Below, piece after piece: positions 28,823-34,804 of a stretch of DNA of 45,876 nt; the stretch's first letter is position 1; each line of letters opens with the position of its first letter. The notes below the pieces were generated by a model. The model did no database searches and was not told the DNA's origin. It saw only the letters and a list, made by a program, of their open reading frames with translations. Source of the stretch: Spirochaetota bacterium (lineage in GTDB: Bacteria > Spirochaetota > UBA4802 > UBA5550). The position numbers and the translations under genes were made by a program. The DNA lies in contig QKCL01000004.1 of assembly GCA_003246895.1 (NCBI GenBank), forward strand, positions 1-45,876. Direction: 5' to 3'.

Positions 28823-29356
28823 TCATATATCCATGGAAAACTTGTCATCATGGTCGGGGGATGACATATCTGCAAATTTAAGGTCGCCCCCGCATGAGGG
28901 GCATGTTTCAAGGCCGCTTTTCATGGAAAAGTCGCTGCCGCAGTAGGGGCATTTTTTAAGTTTCAGTTTGAACTGGTATCCGTGGAATATGTAGAACATT
29001 ATGCCGTTTCTGGTTTCCCTTCGGGCAATTCCCGATTTTACAAGGGAGTTCAGTTCCTCGTCCAGTGCTTCGGTGCTGTCCGATGTTCCCTGAAAAAGTT
29101 CCTCTCTCACGAGCCCGTTATTCCTTGCCGCGATTAAAAGTATTTTTTTTCTTATGGAAGAGGGAGACATGCTGAGGCCCTTGAGAAAAAGTATTATACC
29201 TGGAATTATGAGAGGTACCGACACAGCAAGCATTATCAGTCCTGTTCTGAGCCGTGAATTCGTTTCATCTGAAGCTGTGACAAAAATAAGTCCCAGGAGA
29301 GCAAGCATTACCCCGGGAAGAAGGAGTATGGAGCCCAGTATTATTTTAAGTGCCAT
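28823..29356 (-). CDS. Membrane protein with C-terminal zinc ribbon
   Basis: The 177-residue protein starts with two membrane helices, IILGSILLLPGVMLALLGLIF and the one around LIMLAVSVPLIIPGIILFL. A winged-helix-like middle follows (KILLIAARNNGLVREELF, then LNSLVKSGIARRE). It ends in a double zinc ribbon, CPYCGSDF and CPSCGGDL. The ATG at 29356 overlaps the upstream stop as TGATG, so it is preferred to GTG at 29362. It is the last gene of the four-gene operon headed by the Cys-His tail membrane protein. Zinc ribbons beside a winged helix suggest protein or nucleic-acid contact at the membrane. Function unknown. Confidence 0.72.
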   Translation of the reverse strand: MALKIILGSILLLPGVMLALLGLIFVTASDETNSRLRTGLIMLAVSVPLIIPGIILFLKGLSMSPSSIRKKILLIAARNNGLVREELFQGTSDSTEALDEELNSLVKSGIARRETRNGIMFYIFHGYQFKLKLKKCPYCGSDFSMKSGLETCPSCGGDLKFADMSSPDHDDKFSMDI

Positions 29357-30621
29357 CACCACTGCTCCTTTGTTCTCTTGTTAAGCTCATCACCCATGGC
29401 TGTAAAATATTTCTCAATATTTTTATCTGTGAGAAATTTATCGGTTTTTTCTTTCATCTCATTTGCGAAATCCATGGGATGGGTTGAACTTTTCTCTACA
29501 TCTATGAATTTCTCCAGATTCTCCAGTTCTGCGAAGAATTCCTCAGAAGCCTTGGGGACATTTATATTCAGCGTGGGGAGCTGGGAATACTGGTCCTCTG
29601 TTTTTTTAACCTTCGCAAGGCTCTCTTTGAATGTCTTCATCCCGTCCCGAAGCCCCTTGATGAGGGCAATGATCGATACAGCTCCCTTTATTCCCTCCTG
29701 TAGCGTGCTGAATACACGGTTCAGTTCTCCGGTCTCAACGAGGCTTCCGGCAATATCCTTCCTGTCCTCGCTGAATGGCTCTCCGCAGAAGTTGCAGTAG
29801 AAGAAGTTTCCTGTGTTTTTATTTCCGCATTTTTTGCACTGGGACGGTTTTTTCACATCCATATCTTTTATAATAAATTTTTCATCTCCCTGAAGTCTCT
29901 TGAGCGCCTCTGTAAATGAGGATTTTTCTATGAGTTTTTCAGCTGATGATGTGAGTGTTTCAATTTTTTCAGAGATTATGGAATACTCCGTCTGAATATC
30001 ACTCCAGTCCTTCTGAATGGCCTCATCCTTTGTGTCCAGGTTCTTCTCCATGTCGATCCATTTCTTCCGGACATTTTCTATACTGACCATGAGTTCTGCC
30101 CGTTTTTCGATGAGTTCATTTTTCTCTTTTTCAATTTTTTTCATTCTGAAGAAATTTGTGATTATTCCGAAACCTGTGTTCAGTTCATCAATTGTGGCAT
30201 TGTACCGGGCAATCTCATCGTCCAGTGTGTTTATCTTTTTTTTAAGTTTCTCCTCGTATTTGTCCAGGTCTGTGTTTGTTTTTCTGAGCTGCGTATAGTT
30301 TTCCTTTTTATCGGCCTTGACCTTTTCGAGTTCCCTGCCCATTTGGCTTCTCTGGTCCTTCAGTTCTGCAAGACGGGCCTGAAATATTTTCTTCTGTTCC
30401 GGAAGGGCCTCTTCATAGTATTTCCTTATTTCACCGGGGAAGTGACTGCTGTCGCTGAAAAAACAGTTCTGGAGAAAGTCGATCTCCCGGTTCCTGGTCT
30501 CTATGACGTTGTTGAAGTTTCTGTTGAATTCAGTTTCAATGGTGTTGAGTTTTTCATAAATTTTTCTGGTTACACCCAGCCCTGAGTCCATGAATTCTAT
30601 CATACTTACAAGTGTTCCCAT
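29356..30621 (-). CDS. Coiled-coil protein with central zinc ribbon
   Basis: The 421-residue protein is soluble, with no signal peptide. Residues about 20-245 are predicted coiled coil, rich in Glu, Lys and Leu heptads. Near residue 265 a zinc ribbon, CKKCGNKN...CNFCGEPF, breaks the coil. A short hydrophobic stretch (GAVSIIALIKGLRDGM near 310) precedes another helical end. The ATG overlaps the stop of the radical SAM gene (TAATG), so the two proteins are probably made in step. No family is recognised. As part of this operon it may tether or organise the modification enzyme and the membrane substrate; this is inference only. Confidence 0.72.
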   Translation of the reverse strand: MGTLVSMIEFMDSGLGVTRKIYEKLNTIETEFNRNFNNVIETRNREIDFLQNCFFSDSSHFPGEIRKYYEEALPEQKKIFQARLAELKDQRSQMGRELEKVKADKKENYTQLRKTNTDLDKYEEKLKKKINTLDDEIARYNATIDELNTGFGIITNFFRMKKIEKEKNELIEKRAELMVSIENVRKKWIDMEKNLDTKDEAIQKDWSDIQTEYSIISEKIETLTSSAEKLIEKSSFTEALKRLQGDEKFIIKDMDVKKPSQCKKCGNKNTGNFFYCNFCGEPFSEDRKDIAGSLVETGELNRVFSTLQEGIKGAVSIIALIKGLRDGMKTFKESLAKVKKTEDQYSQLPTLNINVPKASEEFFAELENLEKFIDVEKSSTHPMDFANEMKEKTDKFLTDKNIEKYFTAMGDELNKRTKEQW

Positions 30622-32036
30622 TATTTACTCCCCGGTGCGGTAATTCCCCTGACACCTTTGCTTTTTACTCTTATTTTGTTTTCCAGGTTCCAGAGAAAGT
30701 TGCCCACCATTGGCTTCCTGTTCCGGACCTCTTCTATCTCCTTAAATGAACCCGCGTTTTCCCAGTAGAGCGGGCATGCTCCTGAACAGAGCGGAACCAG
30801 TTCACATTTTCTGCAGACCGGCGGCGTGTACCTTTTCTCTCTGTAATACAGAGCCTGGTCGGATTCCCAGATAGATTCAAAAGATTTATGGAGGAGACTG
30901 CCGATTCCCCTGTCATAGCTTGAGCATGGTATTATTTCCCCTGAAGGGTTCACAGAGAGAAGCCCTGAAACACAGGCACAGGACTTGGCTCCCAGATTGT
31001 GTTCAACGGGGTTGAATATGCAGTATGGTGTGGGAGAATACCATACAAATTTTACCCCTATGTAATTGCATCTTCGTATTACAGGTTCAATTATGGGCCC
31101 GATTGTGGAGTAGCCTATGTTGATGTTGTCATTATCCCTTGCAATGCCGGTTGCGATTATCATGTTCATTGAAAGATAGGCGGCGTTGAATTCTGTTTTA
31201 ACAAAGTCAACGAGGGGTATGAGGTGATCCATGTTGCCGTGGCATATTGTTGTGTTTGTGTGTGTATGAATTCCTGCGCTTTTAAGATTGTGTATTGCCT
31301 GGATTACAGAGTCATAGGCATTTTCATTTCCCGTAACCCTGTTGTGAATTTCCCTGTCGTGGGATTCAAGGCTCACCTGGGAAGAGTTGAGGCCGGCTTT
31401 TTTAAGTTCTGCGACCAGCTCGCTGTCGCCGCATCTGATTCCGTTTGTGATGAGATTTGTCCGCATGCCGAGTTTTGAGGCATAGTGTACGAGTTCAGGC
31501 AGGTCTGTTCTCAGGGTCGGCTCTCCTCCGGTGAAGGAGATTGTCGGTACCTTTGCCTCTTCATGTATCTTTTTTATAATGGTCTTTATCTGTTCAGTGG
31601 TCATCTCATTCTGCCTGTCACCCCTGTAGGGGCTTGAGGCATAGCAGAATTCACAGCGGTTCTGGCATGAGTATGTAAGTGCTATTTCAGAGAGGACAGG
31701 ATGCTTTATGCTTTCCGGGTCAAAGGGAATTGTATTTATCATGGATGCAGCAGAGTAGTTCTCGTTCATGAGTGAATTTACAGTGTTTATCATTTCAGAC
31801 ATGTCTGCAGTAATGAGGTTCAGGTCTTTTCTGTACTTTTCAGAAAGGAACAGGGCAAGATCCATGGCGGATTTTTTTTCTGCGTACAGGCCGTTCAGTA
31901 TTTCAAAGCCTGTGCTGTTTATGTGATATATCTTGTTTGGCCTTATTATAAGGAGCATGTCATCAGGCCGGAGATAAAGTATCTCTCTTGTTGAATCTAC
32001 ATAGGAATCTATTTTTGTATAAATTTCTTTTTCCAT
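30621..32036 (-). CDS. Radical SAM/SPASM peptide-modifying enzyme with N-terminal PqqD-like domain
   Basis: The start at 32036 gives 471 residues and is supported by AGGCGG directly before it. Residues about 20-90 look like a PqqD-like RiPP recognition element (LRPDDMLLIIRPNKIYHINS, then GFEILNGL and LFLSEKY). The radical SAM core begins with C124-x3-C128-x2-C131 (SCQNRCEFCY), binding the 4Fe-4S cluster, with GGEP at 170-173. The SPASM part has C355-x15-C371 and C408-x2-C411-x5-C417-x3-C421, binding auxiliary clusters. Such enzymes install cross-links or other radical changes on ribosomal peptides. The adjacent Cys-His repeat tail is the obvious candidate substrate. An upstream start at 32177 only translates the repeat DNA out of frame and is rejected. 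Confidence 0.88.
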   Translation of the reverse strand: MEKEIYTKIDSYVDSTREILYLRPDDMLLIIRPNKIYHINSTGFEILNGLYAEKKSAMDLALFLSEKYRKDLNLITADMSEMINTVNSLMNENYSAASMINTIPFDPESIKHPVLSEIALTYSCQNRCEFCYASSPYRGDRQNEMTTEQIKTIIKKIHEEAKVPTISFTGGEPTLRTDLPELVHYASKLGMRTNLITNGIRCGDSELVAELKKAGLNSSQVSLESHDREIHNRVTGNENAYDSVIQAIHNLKSAGIHTHTNTTICHGNMDHLIPLVDFVKTEFNAAYLSMNMIIATGIARDNDNINIGYSTIGPIIEPVIRRCNYIGVKFVWYSPTPYCIFNPVEHNLGAKSCACVSGLLSVNPSGEIIPCSSYDRGIGSLLHKSFESIWESDQALYYREKRYTPPVCRKCELVPLCSGACPLYWENAGSFKEIEEVRNRKPMVGNFLWNLENKIRVKSKGVRGITAPGSK

Positions 32037-32044
32037 GGTGCCGC

Positions 32045-34804
32045 CTAGAAACTGGATACGCATGCAGAGTGGCATGCAGAGTGGCAGGCCGAGTGCACGC
32101 ATGCAGAGTGGCATGCAGAGTGGCAGGCCGAATGCACACATGCAGAGTGGCACGCCGAGTGACATGCAGAATGGCATGCGTCATAGCTGAATGACGATAT
32201 GTTCCCCTCCACGGAGGATGCAATCTTTTCAGCTGCGGCTATGTCTGTTGTCTTGAACAGGCTCTCTATGTTGTCTATGACCTTTGTGGACATCTCCTCC
32301 ACTTCCCCTGCAATGCCGTCGGCAAAGTCAACGATTGATTCGGTAAATGATGATGTATCTGTATTGTCCGGGGTAACACTATTAAGAAATGATATCGCGT
32401 CCCTGTTCTGTGCAGAACCTGAGCTGACTATGTCATTGAGGTATTCACCTGAGTTTCTGTCAAATTCATCATTGATTATTATCCAGGGATTGTTTTTCAT
32501 GAAATAGTCCCTGCGGTAATCGGCTCTGTCAGCAGTAATGAAGTCGTGCCAGTGTTTTTTCACCTTTGTGTCGTAGACTTCCGCTGTCTTGTCTATGTCT
32601 CCCCTCCAGACCTTTGTCTGAAGCGATTTTGTCACTTCCTTCAGTATGAGAGGTGTGCGTTTTTTCCCCAGTGTGCCGTCTTCGGCAATTGATTTCATTA
32701 GCTCCCTCTCGTAGCCTTCCAGGCTTTCATCGGCCTTTTTGATTATGGAGATCTGGAGCGGGTTCCGGTTTATGATGTCAATATAACCTTTTGTATAGAG
32801 ATCCATTACAATGAGGCGTATGGCCTTTGTGGGTTTGTTGAGAAACATGGCTGTTTCAACAGGGTTCAGGTTCTCAACGGTTTCCCCGGTTTTGAATGTT
32901 TCCACCTGTATTTCAGGGGCGATGTATTCAGGTTTCTTTTCAAATCTCTTCTGAACCGCCGGGTGAATTCTTGCAACCTGGTAGAGAAGAGCCAGGAATC
33001 CGGCAATGATGTACCAGATTATTCTGAAGGGAACCAGCAGTGCGTTAAAACTGAGTATCCATCCGGAATTAAGGCTGAACCATTTTCTGCCGGCCGGAAA
33101 GAAAACCTTTTTGAAAATGTCTATTTTTAAAATTTTTCCTGCGATAAATATGAGCCAGCCTGCTGTGACTATTTCAATGAGCAGAATTGGAAAGTTTAAC
33201 GCGAAAATGAAAATTATGGTGAGAATTACTGTTCCGGATACAGAAAGTAGCAGGTTGCTGTCAGCCTTTGTGAAGTTGGAATCGAGCATGTCATTGAGTA
33301 TTATCTTCACGGACTGAAAAAATGTGAGATCCACTGATGTGTAGGGTACATAGAGATTGAAGTTAATGGCCGGAATGGAATTTTTGCCCCAGTTTTCAGA
33401 TATTGCCCGGAAGTCTATGTGTCTTGTGAGTTCGGCAGTATTTTTTTCCGCAGCCCTTTCATAGTATTCCCAGGATTTGAATTTCTCCTTCTCGAACTCA
33501 TATACAAATATCGGTTTTGATGTATTTTCAGGTGATTCGTTGCCAAGTTTATCAAAGTTCCCCTTGAATGGGTGTGATATGTTTACTATGAGTTTTTTGA
33601 TTGGTTTTCCAAATTCTATTCCCCTCCATGCGGCGGAAAATTTTATCTTCTGGTTTATGAGCCTCTTTTCAAAGGGCATGTCTTCATACACGCCGGTTTT
33701 GTAGGGGAAGTGAAATGCTATTTTTTCACCCTTCTTTATTGGCCTTGATGTGATGATGTCGAATAGGCCGTCATGCCGTTTGCCTGCACTGTCAATGTGC
33801 TGACGGAATTTGACTGAAACGGATTTCTCCCAAAGGAGCTTTTTGTATGTTACTGCGTCGTATACTTCAATGGCGGCATACTGCAGGGGCAGCCCGGATT
33901 TAACCGCTGCCCTGTACATATTCCGTTCACCGTTCTCGGTAATGACCATGAATATACTGGTATCCTCCATGAGCCTCTGGGCATTATAGCTGTCCGCGCG
34001 CATGTATATATAGGCAGATGCGCCCTCCAGTTCATAGTCACCCTTTTCAATGATATTTGAGGCTGAAAATGTATTAAGTGTATATGTCCCGCCTTCGGCG
34101 CCCTTTGCAATATATTCTTTTGGAATAAACATCTGAAGATTCTGTTTGTATCTTGGGTAGAGGCTGTTTTTTTCTATGTGGACTGCAAGGTAGTTTCTCC
34201 CCTTCCACAGAGCCGGGTAGTATATCCACCTGTCGTTTGATTTTACAGCCGTGACATTTGCTATGAGTCCGTATTTATTTACAAGGGGGTCCTTGATCTG
34301 TGAGGCTTTTCTGTATTTTTTCGGTATTTCGATGGGGGTGATTATCTGAACGGTCTGTTTTTTTATGGGCAGATCCCATTGAACAGTGGGCCACCAGAAA
34401 GCTCCGTAGGGTTTGTTTTTGAAAGTAGTATCGGTAAACATGGATTTTGAAAGTTTGTACCGTATGTTCACCGTGTATTTTTTTGTCTGTGATGTTGTGA
34501 TGGAGAAGTTTGCGGCGTAGTAGCCGTAACTGTTCTTTGTCATTGTTACGCCGAACCTGTTCTTTCCGGTTGTTCCCCAGGATTCTATTATTGACATTGG
34601 CTCAATGAACTGCCCGATGGACCTGATTTTGTTCCGGGTTTCGTTCTCTGTGAATGTGATGCTGTATAAAATCTCCATCTGGCCGTCCTGGAGGATCGTG
34701 GCAACATATTTGGTATCCTCAATTGTAACAGGCGCGGCAAAAAGCATTGTTTTAACGAAAAGTGCTGAAAGAATCAGTGTCAGTTTCTTTGTAAACTTTT
34801 GCAT
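32045..34804 (-). CDS. DUF2207-like membrane protein with C-terminal Cys-His-Ser-Ala repeat tail
   Basis: The 919-residue protein starts with a signal peptide ending around FAAPVT. A large extracytoplasmic region of about 490 residues has the DUF2207 pattern, from YVATILQDGQMEILYSITF onward. Three or four membrane helices lie between about 500 and 620. A cytoplasmic region includes NPVETAMFLNKPTKAIRLIV, like the conserved cytoplasmic part of DUF2207 proteins. The last 45 residues (about 875-919) are a repeat of ACHS units with interspersed Val, ending ACVSSF: 10 Cys and 9 His. DUF2207 relatives often end in Gly-rich tails, so this tail is unusual. It should be cytoplasmic, within reach of the radical SAM enzyme made from the next gene, whose ribosome-binding site overlaps this stop codon. 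Confidence 0.82.
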   Translation of the reverse strand: MQKFTKKLTLILSALFVKTMLFAAPVTIEDTKYVATILQDGQMEILYSITFTENETRNKIRSIGQFIEPMSIIESWGTTGKNRFGVTMTKNSYGYYAANFSITTSQTKKYTVNIRYKLSKSMFTDTTFKNKPYGAFWWPTVQWDLPIKKQTVQIITPIEIPKKYRKASQIKDPLVNKYGLIANVTAVKSNDRWIYYPALWKGRNYLAVHIEKNSLYPRYKQNLQMFIPKEYIAKGAEGGTYTLNTFSASNIIEKGDYELEGASAYIYMRADSYNAQRLMEDTSIFMVITENGERNMYRAAVKSGLPLQYAAIEVYDAVTYKKLLWEKSVSVKFRQHIDSAGKRHDGLFDIITSRPIKKGEKIAFHFPYKTGVYEDMPFEKRLINQKIKFSAAWRGIEFGKPIKKLIVNISHPFKGNFDKLGNESPENTSKPIFVYEFEKEKFKSWEYYERAAEKNTAELTRHIDFRAISENWGKNSIPAINFNLYVPYTSVDLTFFQSVKIILNDMLDSNFTKADSNLLLSVSGTVILTIIFIFALNFPILLIEIVTAGWLIFIAGKILKIDIFKKVFFPAGRKWFSLNSGWILSFNALLVPFRIIWYIIAGFLALLYQVARIHPAVQKRFEKKPEYIAPEIQVETFKTGETVENLNPVETAMFLNKPTKAIRLIVMDLYTKGYIDIINRNPLQISIIKKADESLEGYERELMKSIAEDGTLGKKRTPLILKEVTKSLQTKVWRGDIDKTAEVYDTKVKKHWHDFITADRADYRRDYFMKNNPWIIINDEFDRNSGEYLNDIVSSGSAQNRDAISFLNSVTPDNTDTSSFTESIVDFADGIAGEVEEMSTKVIDNIESLFKTTDIAAAEKIASSVEGNISSFSYDACHSACHSACHSACVHSACHSACHSACVHSACHSACHSACVSSF
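32048..32182 (-). repeat. Nested 12-nt / 39-nt coding repeat encoding the Cys-His tail
   Basis: Two near-perfect 39-base units (32061-32099 and 32100-32138) and a longer divergent third unit encode HSACHSACHSACV. Within each, a 12-base subunit encodes HSAC. Across all copies the codons vary only at third positions: CAC/CAT, TGC/TGT, TCT/TCG and GCA/GCC/GCG. The peptide is therefore constant while the DNA drifts. Confidence 0.9.

Follow-up and report, generated by a model that had tools for sequence, protein, structure and literature searches.

A Cys-His-Ser-Ala-tailed membrane protein beside a radical SAM/SPASM enzyme: a candidate system for tail modification in place

Radical SAM peptide maturases are known for acting on short precursors, which are later cut out and exported. 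What, then, is such an enzyme doing beside a large membrane protein whose C-terminus is a repeat of Cys-His-Ser-Ala? The operon that raises this question lies in the window, a term used here for the whole 45,876-nucleotide stretch of DNA that was analysed. A preliminary description of this DNA inferred that the tail is modified in place on the membrane protein rather than on a short free precursor, and named two findings that would refute the idea: tails without a nearby radical SAM gene, and enzymes paired with a different, short precursor. Both refuting tests came out in its support, as explained below. Modification of the membrane protein's own tail by the radical SAM enzyme is the reading that we regard as probable, thioether cross-linking being the likeliest chemistry; the modification itself and its chemistry are still inferred.

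The operon consists of four tightly packed genes on the minus strand. The first (32045..34804) encodes a membrane protein of 919 aa with a signal peptide, a large beta-rich outer domain, approximately three transmembrane segments, a winged-helix-like part that is predicted to be cytosolic and the C-terminal tail. This tail, the proposed substrate region, spans 32048..32179 and has the sequence ACHSACHSACHSACVHSACHSACHSACVHSACHSACHSACVSSF. It comprises 44 residues, including 10 Cys and 9 His, and ends in CVSSF; the length of 45 given originally is reached only if the preceding Asp is included, and the Cys and His counts stand. The second gene (30621..32036) encodes the 471-aa enzyme, the proposed maturase, and its ATG at 32036 is eight bases past the membrane-protein stop (32045). 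The enzyme gene overlaps by 1 base with gene 3 (29356..30621), encoding a 421-aa coiled-coil protein with a CxxC..CxxC motif. Gene 3 in turn overlaps by 7 bases with gene 4 (28823..29362), encoding a small, 179-aa protein with two hydrophobic N-terminal segments and a C-terminal zinc ribbon. The coordinates agree with the order first reported, that is, the tail protein, the enzyme eight bases on and two further genes with stop/start overlaps. These last two had both been called zinc-ribbon genes; gene 4 encodes a membrane and zinc-ribbon protein, and gene 3 is mainly coiled coil. Pfam and PDB profiles revealed nothing convincing about the function of either.

The mechanical list of open reading frames assigns 518 aa to the enzyme, starting at a false start within the tail repeat, in the other frame. 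This ORF was rejected as an artefact: read in the enzyme frame, the repeat contains no stop codon and provides false starts inside the tail. Over 32036-32177 the enzyme frame is open backwards through the repeat, where automatic callers may add a false N-terminal extension (PLCMPLCM...), and several relatives contain the same trap. Two other repeats were recorded separately. A 21-bp tandem repeat of eleven copies is located at the window's edge (145-376), and a 107-aa ORF of repeated 'TEIVLKS' units in relative G014 (L013:11854-12177) is possibly a tandem repeat only.

As the tail is itself a tandem repeat at the DNA level, it might merely reflect a 12/39-bp minisatellite that expanded by chance and is fortuitously translatable. 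Its DNA pattern is matched 4 times in the window and 0 times in 100 shuffles. The last 47 residues are identical between the window and two same-family genomes (L014 and L017), and identity falls to only 40-54% over the remainder of the host protein. Within the last 47 codons, positions 1 and 2 match in 94 of 94 cases, and third positions match in 26/47 (L014) and 19/47 (L017). The tail protein has remained unchanged while third codon positions diverged, and therefore selection acts on the protein. Such conservation despite third-position divergence, maintained over more than 25 phylum-level groups, is not what a minisatellite predicts; the artefact is rejected by the codon comparison and we give it practically no credence. 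Consistent with conservation at the protein level, most of the invariant columns in an alignment of 34 host proteins fall in the tail.

A scan of 84,980 bacterial and archaeal species genomes for the tail pattern gave matches that, as listed, are a lower bound. Together with the same-family genomes they amount to at least 71 true-tail loci and, as the listing is incomplete, the true number is higher. These loci are distributed over more than 25 phylum-level groups, as named in the database records, and include Spirochaetota, Chloroflexota, Myxococcota, Planctomycetota, Thermodesulfobacteriota, Acidobacteriota, Bacillota, Omnitrophota and WOR-3, as well as the archaeal Thorarchaeota, Heimdallarchaeota and Thermoproteota. 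Single taxon labels may be misbinned, because most of the tail genomes are MAGs. One carrier that is in culture is Desulfobulbus alkaliphilus DSM 24258 (L056). Across the at least 71 loci, the repeat unit is C-H-x-A, in which x is Ser in 475/548 units and mostly Asp in the remainder, and the Cys-Cys gap is exactly three residues in 580 of 646 cases. Most tails consist of seven to nine units, with either CVSGG-x-H/R or CVS-x-F at the end. They are of two types: in the plain type the repeat is continuous, and in the interrupted type, to which the window's tail belongs, V, VH or VC breaks it up.

The adjacent enzyme was originally described as a radical SAM/SPASM protein with a PqqD-like N-terminus, and the Pfam domains and fold model bear this out, with a reservation for the window's own PqqD score. 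Pfam identifies Radical_SAM (2e-30) and SPASM (1e-8) in the window enzyme, and PqqD only weakly, at 18.9 bits, below the cut-off of 23.4. Among 41 homologues, PqqD is found in 19 (best 6.6e-11) and SPASM in 40, and the Cys residues of the CX3CX2C radical SAM motif (C124, C128 and C131) and of the SPASM region (C339, C353, C371, C408, C411, C417 and C421) are invariant. The AlphaFold2 model (pLDDT 90.4, pTM 0.91) begins with an RRE-like domain (residues 1-95, 31752..32036; pLDDT >90 over most of it), built from the three strands and three helices typical of PqqD/RRE domains. The best PDB matches found by Foldseek are SkfB, SuiB and CteB, all of them RRE-bearing peptide maturases. An anti-phage system was also considered and rejected, since PADLOC returned only generic viperin and coiled-coil scores.

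None of the NCBIfam equivalogs reaches its cut-off with the enzyme. As the best scores are those of NirJ2 (129.6 bits), AhbD (118.9) and PqqE (115.3), the enzyme could instead make a small-molecule cofactor, as do PqqE or the haem enzymes NirJ/AhbD, with the membrane protein serving as carrier or sensor. The scores are, however, far below the respective cut-offs of 500, 500 and 381 bits, no conserved cofactor genes adjoin the enzyme, and the structural matches favour peptide maturases, so that cofactor synthesis appears improbable. The same scores still count against peptide modification, as do the subthreshold PqqD match and the lack of any demonstrated modification.

If the tail were commonly found without a nearby radical SAM gene, modification in place would be refuted. 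Among the matches listed, the enzyme gene is directly downstream and on the same strand in 63 of the 71 tail loci, and the other eight are accounted for. Two of these (L048 and L067) end at the edge of the stretch and an archaeal one (L042) is likewise cut. Three further archaeal loci have the enzyme gene in another position, divergent from the tail gene in L020 and L075 and upstream of it in L088. L023 has a tail gene without an adjacent enzyme, and a second tail copy in that genome (L030) has one. In L084, from WOR-3, the enzyme is elsewhere in the genome and truncated at its N-terminus. Six of the genomes with exceptional loci were searched and the enzyme is present in all six. The separation of the genes in some archaeal loci and one WOR-3 genome, and the L023 tail, are points against the preferred reading.

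The second refuting test concerns an enzyme paired with some other, short precursor. In Spirochaetota, the enzyme is present in 21/393 genomes and the tail in exactly the same 21 (Fisher 3e-35); the sister enzymes of Chloroflexota, described below, also pair with large membrane proteins. In a search of 198 genomes of the window's phylum, the host protein minus its tail was found only in genomes with the enzyme. Every tail whose host gene is complete sits on a large membrane protein, and the short tail ORFs are those cut by the end of a stretch. No short, separate precursor peptide with a leader was found at the tail loci examined, and no conserved alternative substrate candidate was seen in the gene neighbourhoods. 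A single-sequence search of genome contigs with the enzyme gave no relatives, as the patterns were too specific, and a plasmid search gave no match. Because the tail is almost always beside the same enzyme, the enzyme probably modifies it in place. The near-obligate pairing is an observation and the role of the tail as substrate an inference; the case for the tail as substrate is strong but indirect.

Some individual loci have features of their own. In G004 (L017:5189-6510) the enzyme gene is split in two ORFs, perhaps by a frameshift or an assembly error, and the tail is intact. On a WOR-3 chromosome (L229:6947-9431) the enzyme lies apart from the tail gene, has a foreign N-terminus and is beside a type-2 third gene; it is a rearranged or decaying copy. 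In L078, L047, L020, L075 and L084, from WOR-3, Aminicenantes and Thorarchaeota, a conserved gene of approximately 130 aa and of unknown family either immediately precedes the tail gene or lies divergent close to it.

Further support for a functional association came from the tree of 59 enzymes, on which one change (support 100/99) suffices to separate plain from interrupted tails. The coiled-coil third gene, as in the window, accompanies interrupted tails in 16/16 cases, and a different membrane protein of approximately 330 aa takes its place with plain tails in 32/32, so that the third gene matches the tail type in 48 of 48. This tracking of the enzyme tree by tail type and third gene is expected if enzyme, tail and partner act together.

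A related pairing emerged when the enzyme profile was applied to 251 Chloroflexota genomes. The three strong enzymes all have a CHSA tail, and each of 15 weaker sister enzymes (15/15) lies beside a large membrane protein with a (CA)n tail. The sister hosts have the same transmembrane/winged-helix plan and the C-terminus (CA)nGCACACAGGGR. One genome (G409) has both systems, with a small RelE-like gene between tail and enzyme. The CHSA and (CA)n tails have Cys and Ala in common, not His; if the chemistry is shared, it can be inferred that Ala or Cys is a likelier reaction partner than His. At L200-L213 and L228:4624-8253, the sister enzymes and hosts are often accompanied by an additional PqqE-like gene, whose SPASM-like end is degenerate, and by other conserved genes; none of these is named by a family model.

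These comparisons bear on the possibility that the tail is not modified at all and instead binds metal or iron-sulfur clusters in the service of the enzyme, through iron or cluster delivery or membrane recruitment, the enzyme's substrate being something else. Cys/His-rich repeats are generally known to bind metals in many proteins, the partner genes have CxxC or zinc-ribbon motifs, and the hosts are mostly anaerobic, judging from the record names. Yet the enzyme has an RRE, the usual reader of a substrate peptide, the tail type follows the enzyme phylogeny, the sister enzyme is found with a Cys tail of another kind, without His, and the neighbourhoods contain no other conserved candidate substrate. 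An unmodified, metal-binding tail is accordingly judged unlikely, short of being dismissed.

For modification in place, the tail must be where the enzyme can reach it. Pfam gave no hit for the window membrane protein. The best score for DUF2207 (PF09972, cut-off 24.4 bits) is 22.2 in a relative, with no hit for the window, and TIGR04222 (near_uncomplex, cut-off 43 bits) scores 16.6 for the window and 33.1 for the best of 10 relatives. The earlier label 'DUF2207-like' is therefore fair as the expression of a weak relationship that lies below family thresholds. In most relatives, a signal peptide and an outer beta domain precede one strong transmembrane segment, which has positive charge behind it, and the winged-helix-like part and the tail come next; the window's lineage has approximately three transmembrane segments, also an odd number. 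The K/R value after the main transmembrane segment is 4.1 versus 2.0, and positive charge follows it in 32 of 44 proteins. Positive charge past this segment, together with the odd number of segments, places the tail in the cytosol; in the window protein, the part predicted to be cytosolic comprises approximately residues 640-919. This location is inferred, a prediction from hydrophobicity and charge only, and differs from the periplasmic one that has been published for TIGR04222 tails (PMC12452194). Confidence in the model is low for the tail itself, a PDB profile search with the membrane protein gave no match, and a fold search gave domain-level matches only, to the OST subunit ribophorin I and M1 aminopeptidases (TM 0.16-0.17).

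The predicted location also affects a proposal that the tail is exported and attaches haem in multihaem fashion, CHSACH being CX3CH. Each repeat does contain C-X3-C-H, although the canonical motif is generally known to be CXXCH and not CX3CH, neighbouring motifs share Cys residues, and the (CA)n sister tails have no His. With the tail predicted to be cytosolic as well, haem attachment is very hard to credit.

In the preferred mechanism of modification in place, the anchored membrane protein would expose its beta-rich domain on the outside and keep the winged-helix part and the (CHSA)n tail cytosolic. The enzyme would recognise and dock on it through the RRE domain, and would then modify the tail repeatedly while the tail stays attached. 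The chemistry may consist of sactionine/ranthionine-like thioether cross-links made by the Cys sulfurs, with the invariant Ala or with His as possible partners. SkfB- and CteB-like enzymes acting on Cys-rich substrates most commonly form thioethers, and for this reason thioethers are our first guess, one by analogy and held with somewhat less than even confidence. The product would be a stapled tail, possibly metal- or redox-active.

The purpose is likewise inferred. Judging from the pairing, the modification would be housekeeping-like and would affect a large membrane protein whose repeat has hardly changed over the more than 25 phylum-level groups. Should the tail prove to be modified, its four-residue code would constitute, together with the (CA)n sister, a substrate grammar simple enough to test, and the modified tail could represent a new type of site with a metal, redox or structural role. 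A broader proposal, to which we give even chances, is that of a bacterial and archaeal class of radical SAM enzymes that modify the tails of full-length, membrane-anchored proteins in place. (CHSA)n and (CA)n would then be two tail codes, perhaps among others, each of them read by a distinct enzyme clade, and the outcome would be a permanent cross-linked or metal-binding organ on the membrane protein with no released peptide.

How does this arrangement relate to known systems? In the open literature, no paper was found that contains the tail sequence, DUF2207 alongside radical SAM, or the combination; bioRxiv and most subscription journals were outside the scope, and absence is not proof. Among maturases, the window enzyme resembles SkfB, SuiB, CteB and TigE in fold, RRE, radical SAM core and SPASM Cys, and differs in that identity is 15-20% and the candidate substrate belongs to a large membrane protein, as its tail, instead of being a short free precursor. 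The ACGX system (TIGR04340/TIGR04341) also has, by its family names, a radical SAM/SPASM enzyme, and its target, which we take to be a four-residue Ala-Cys repeat, resembles the window tail. The window enzyme, however, scores 90.7 bits against TIGR04340 (cut-off 400), and the TIGR04341 target model has no match in the window's own genome, where the controls were equally silent. In the His-Xaa-Ser system (HxsB/HxsC), radical SAM chemistry acts on a His/Ser repeat; here, in contrast, the repeat is Cys-based, there is one enzyme rather than two, and HxsC scores 78 bits against a cut-off of 267.9.

The remaining comparison is with TIGR04222 membrane proteins, whose Cys-rich tails are proposed MNIO substrates (PMC12452194). 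As tail modification on a membrane protein has already been proposed there, it is not a new idea. What differs from the MNIO proposal is the radical SAM version with a strict CHSA code spanning bacteria and archaea; no such system was found in the NCBIfam, Pfam and open literature searched. The two systems are alike in that a large membrane protein with a Cys-containing, low-complexity C-terminal tail is encoded beside a RiPP-type enzyme gene, modification is proposed on the protein itself, and the host proteins are weakly homologous, with the TIGR04222 cut-off unmet. They differ in that Pfam and NCBIfam detect no MNIO among the operon genes, the window enzyme being a radical SAM/SPASM protein with its own RRE, and in that the window tail is a strict CHSA repeat, not Ser/Gly-rich, and is predicted to be cytosolic, not periplasmic.
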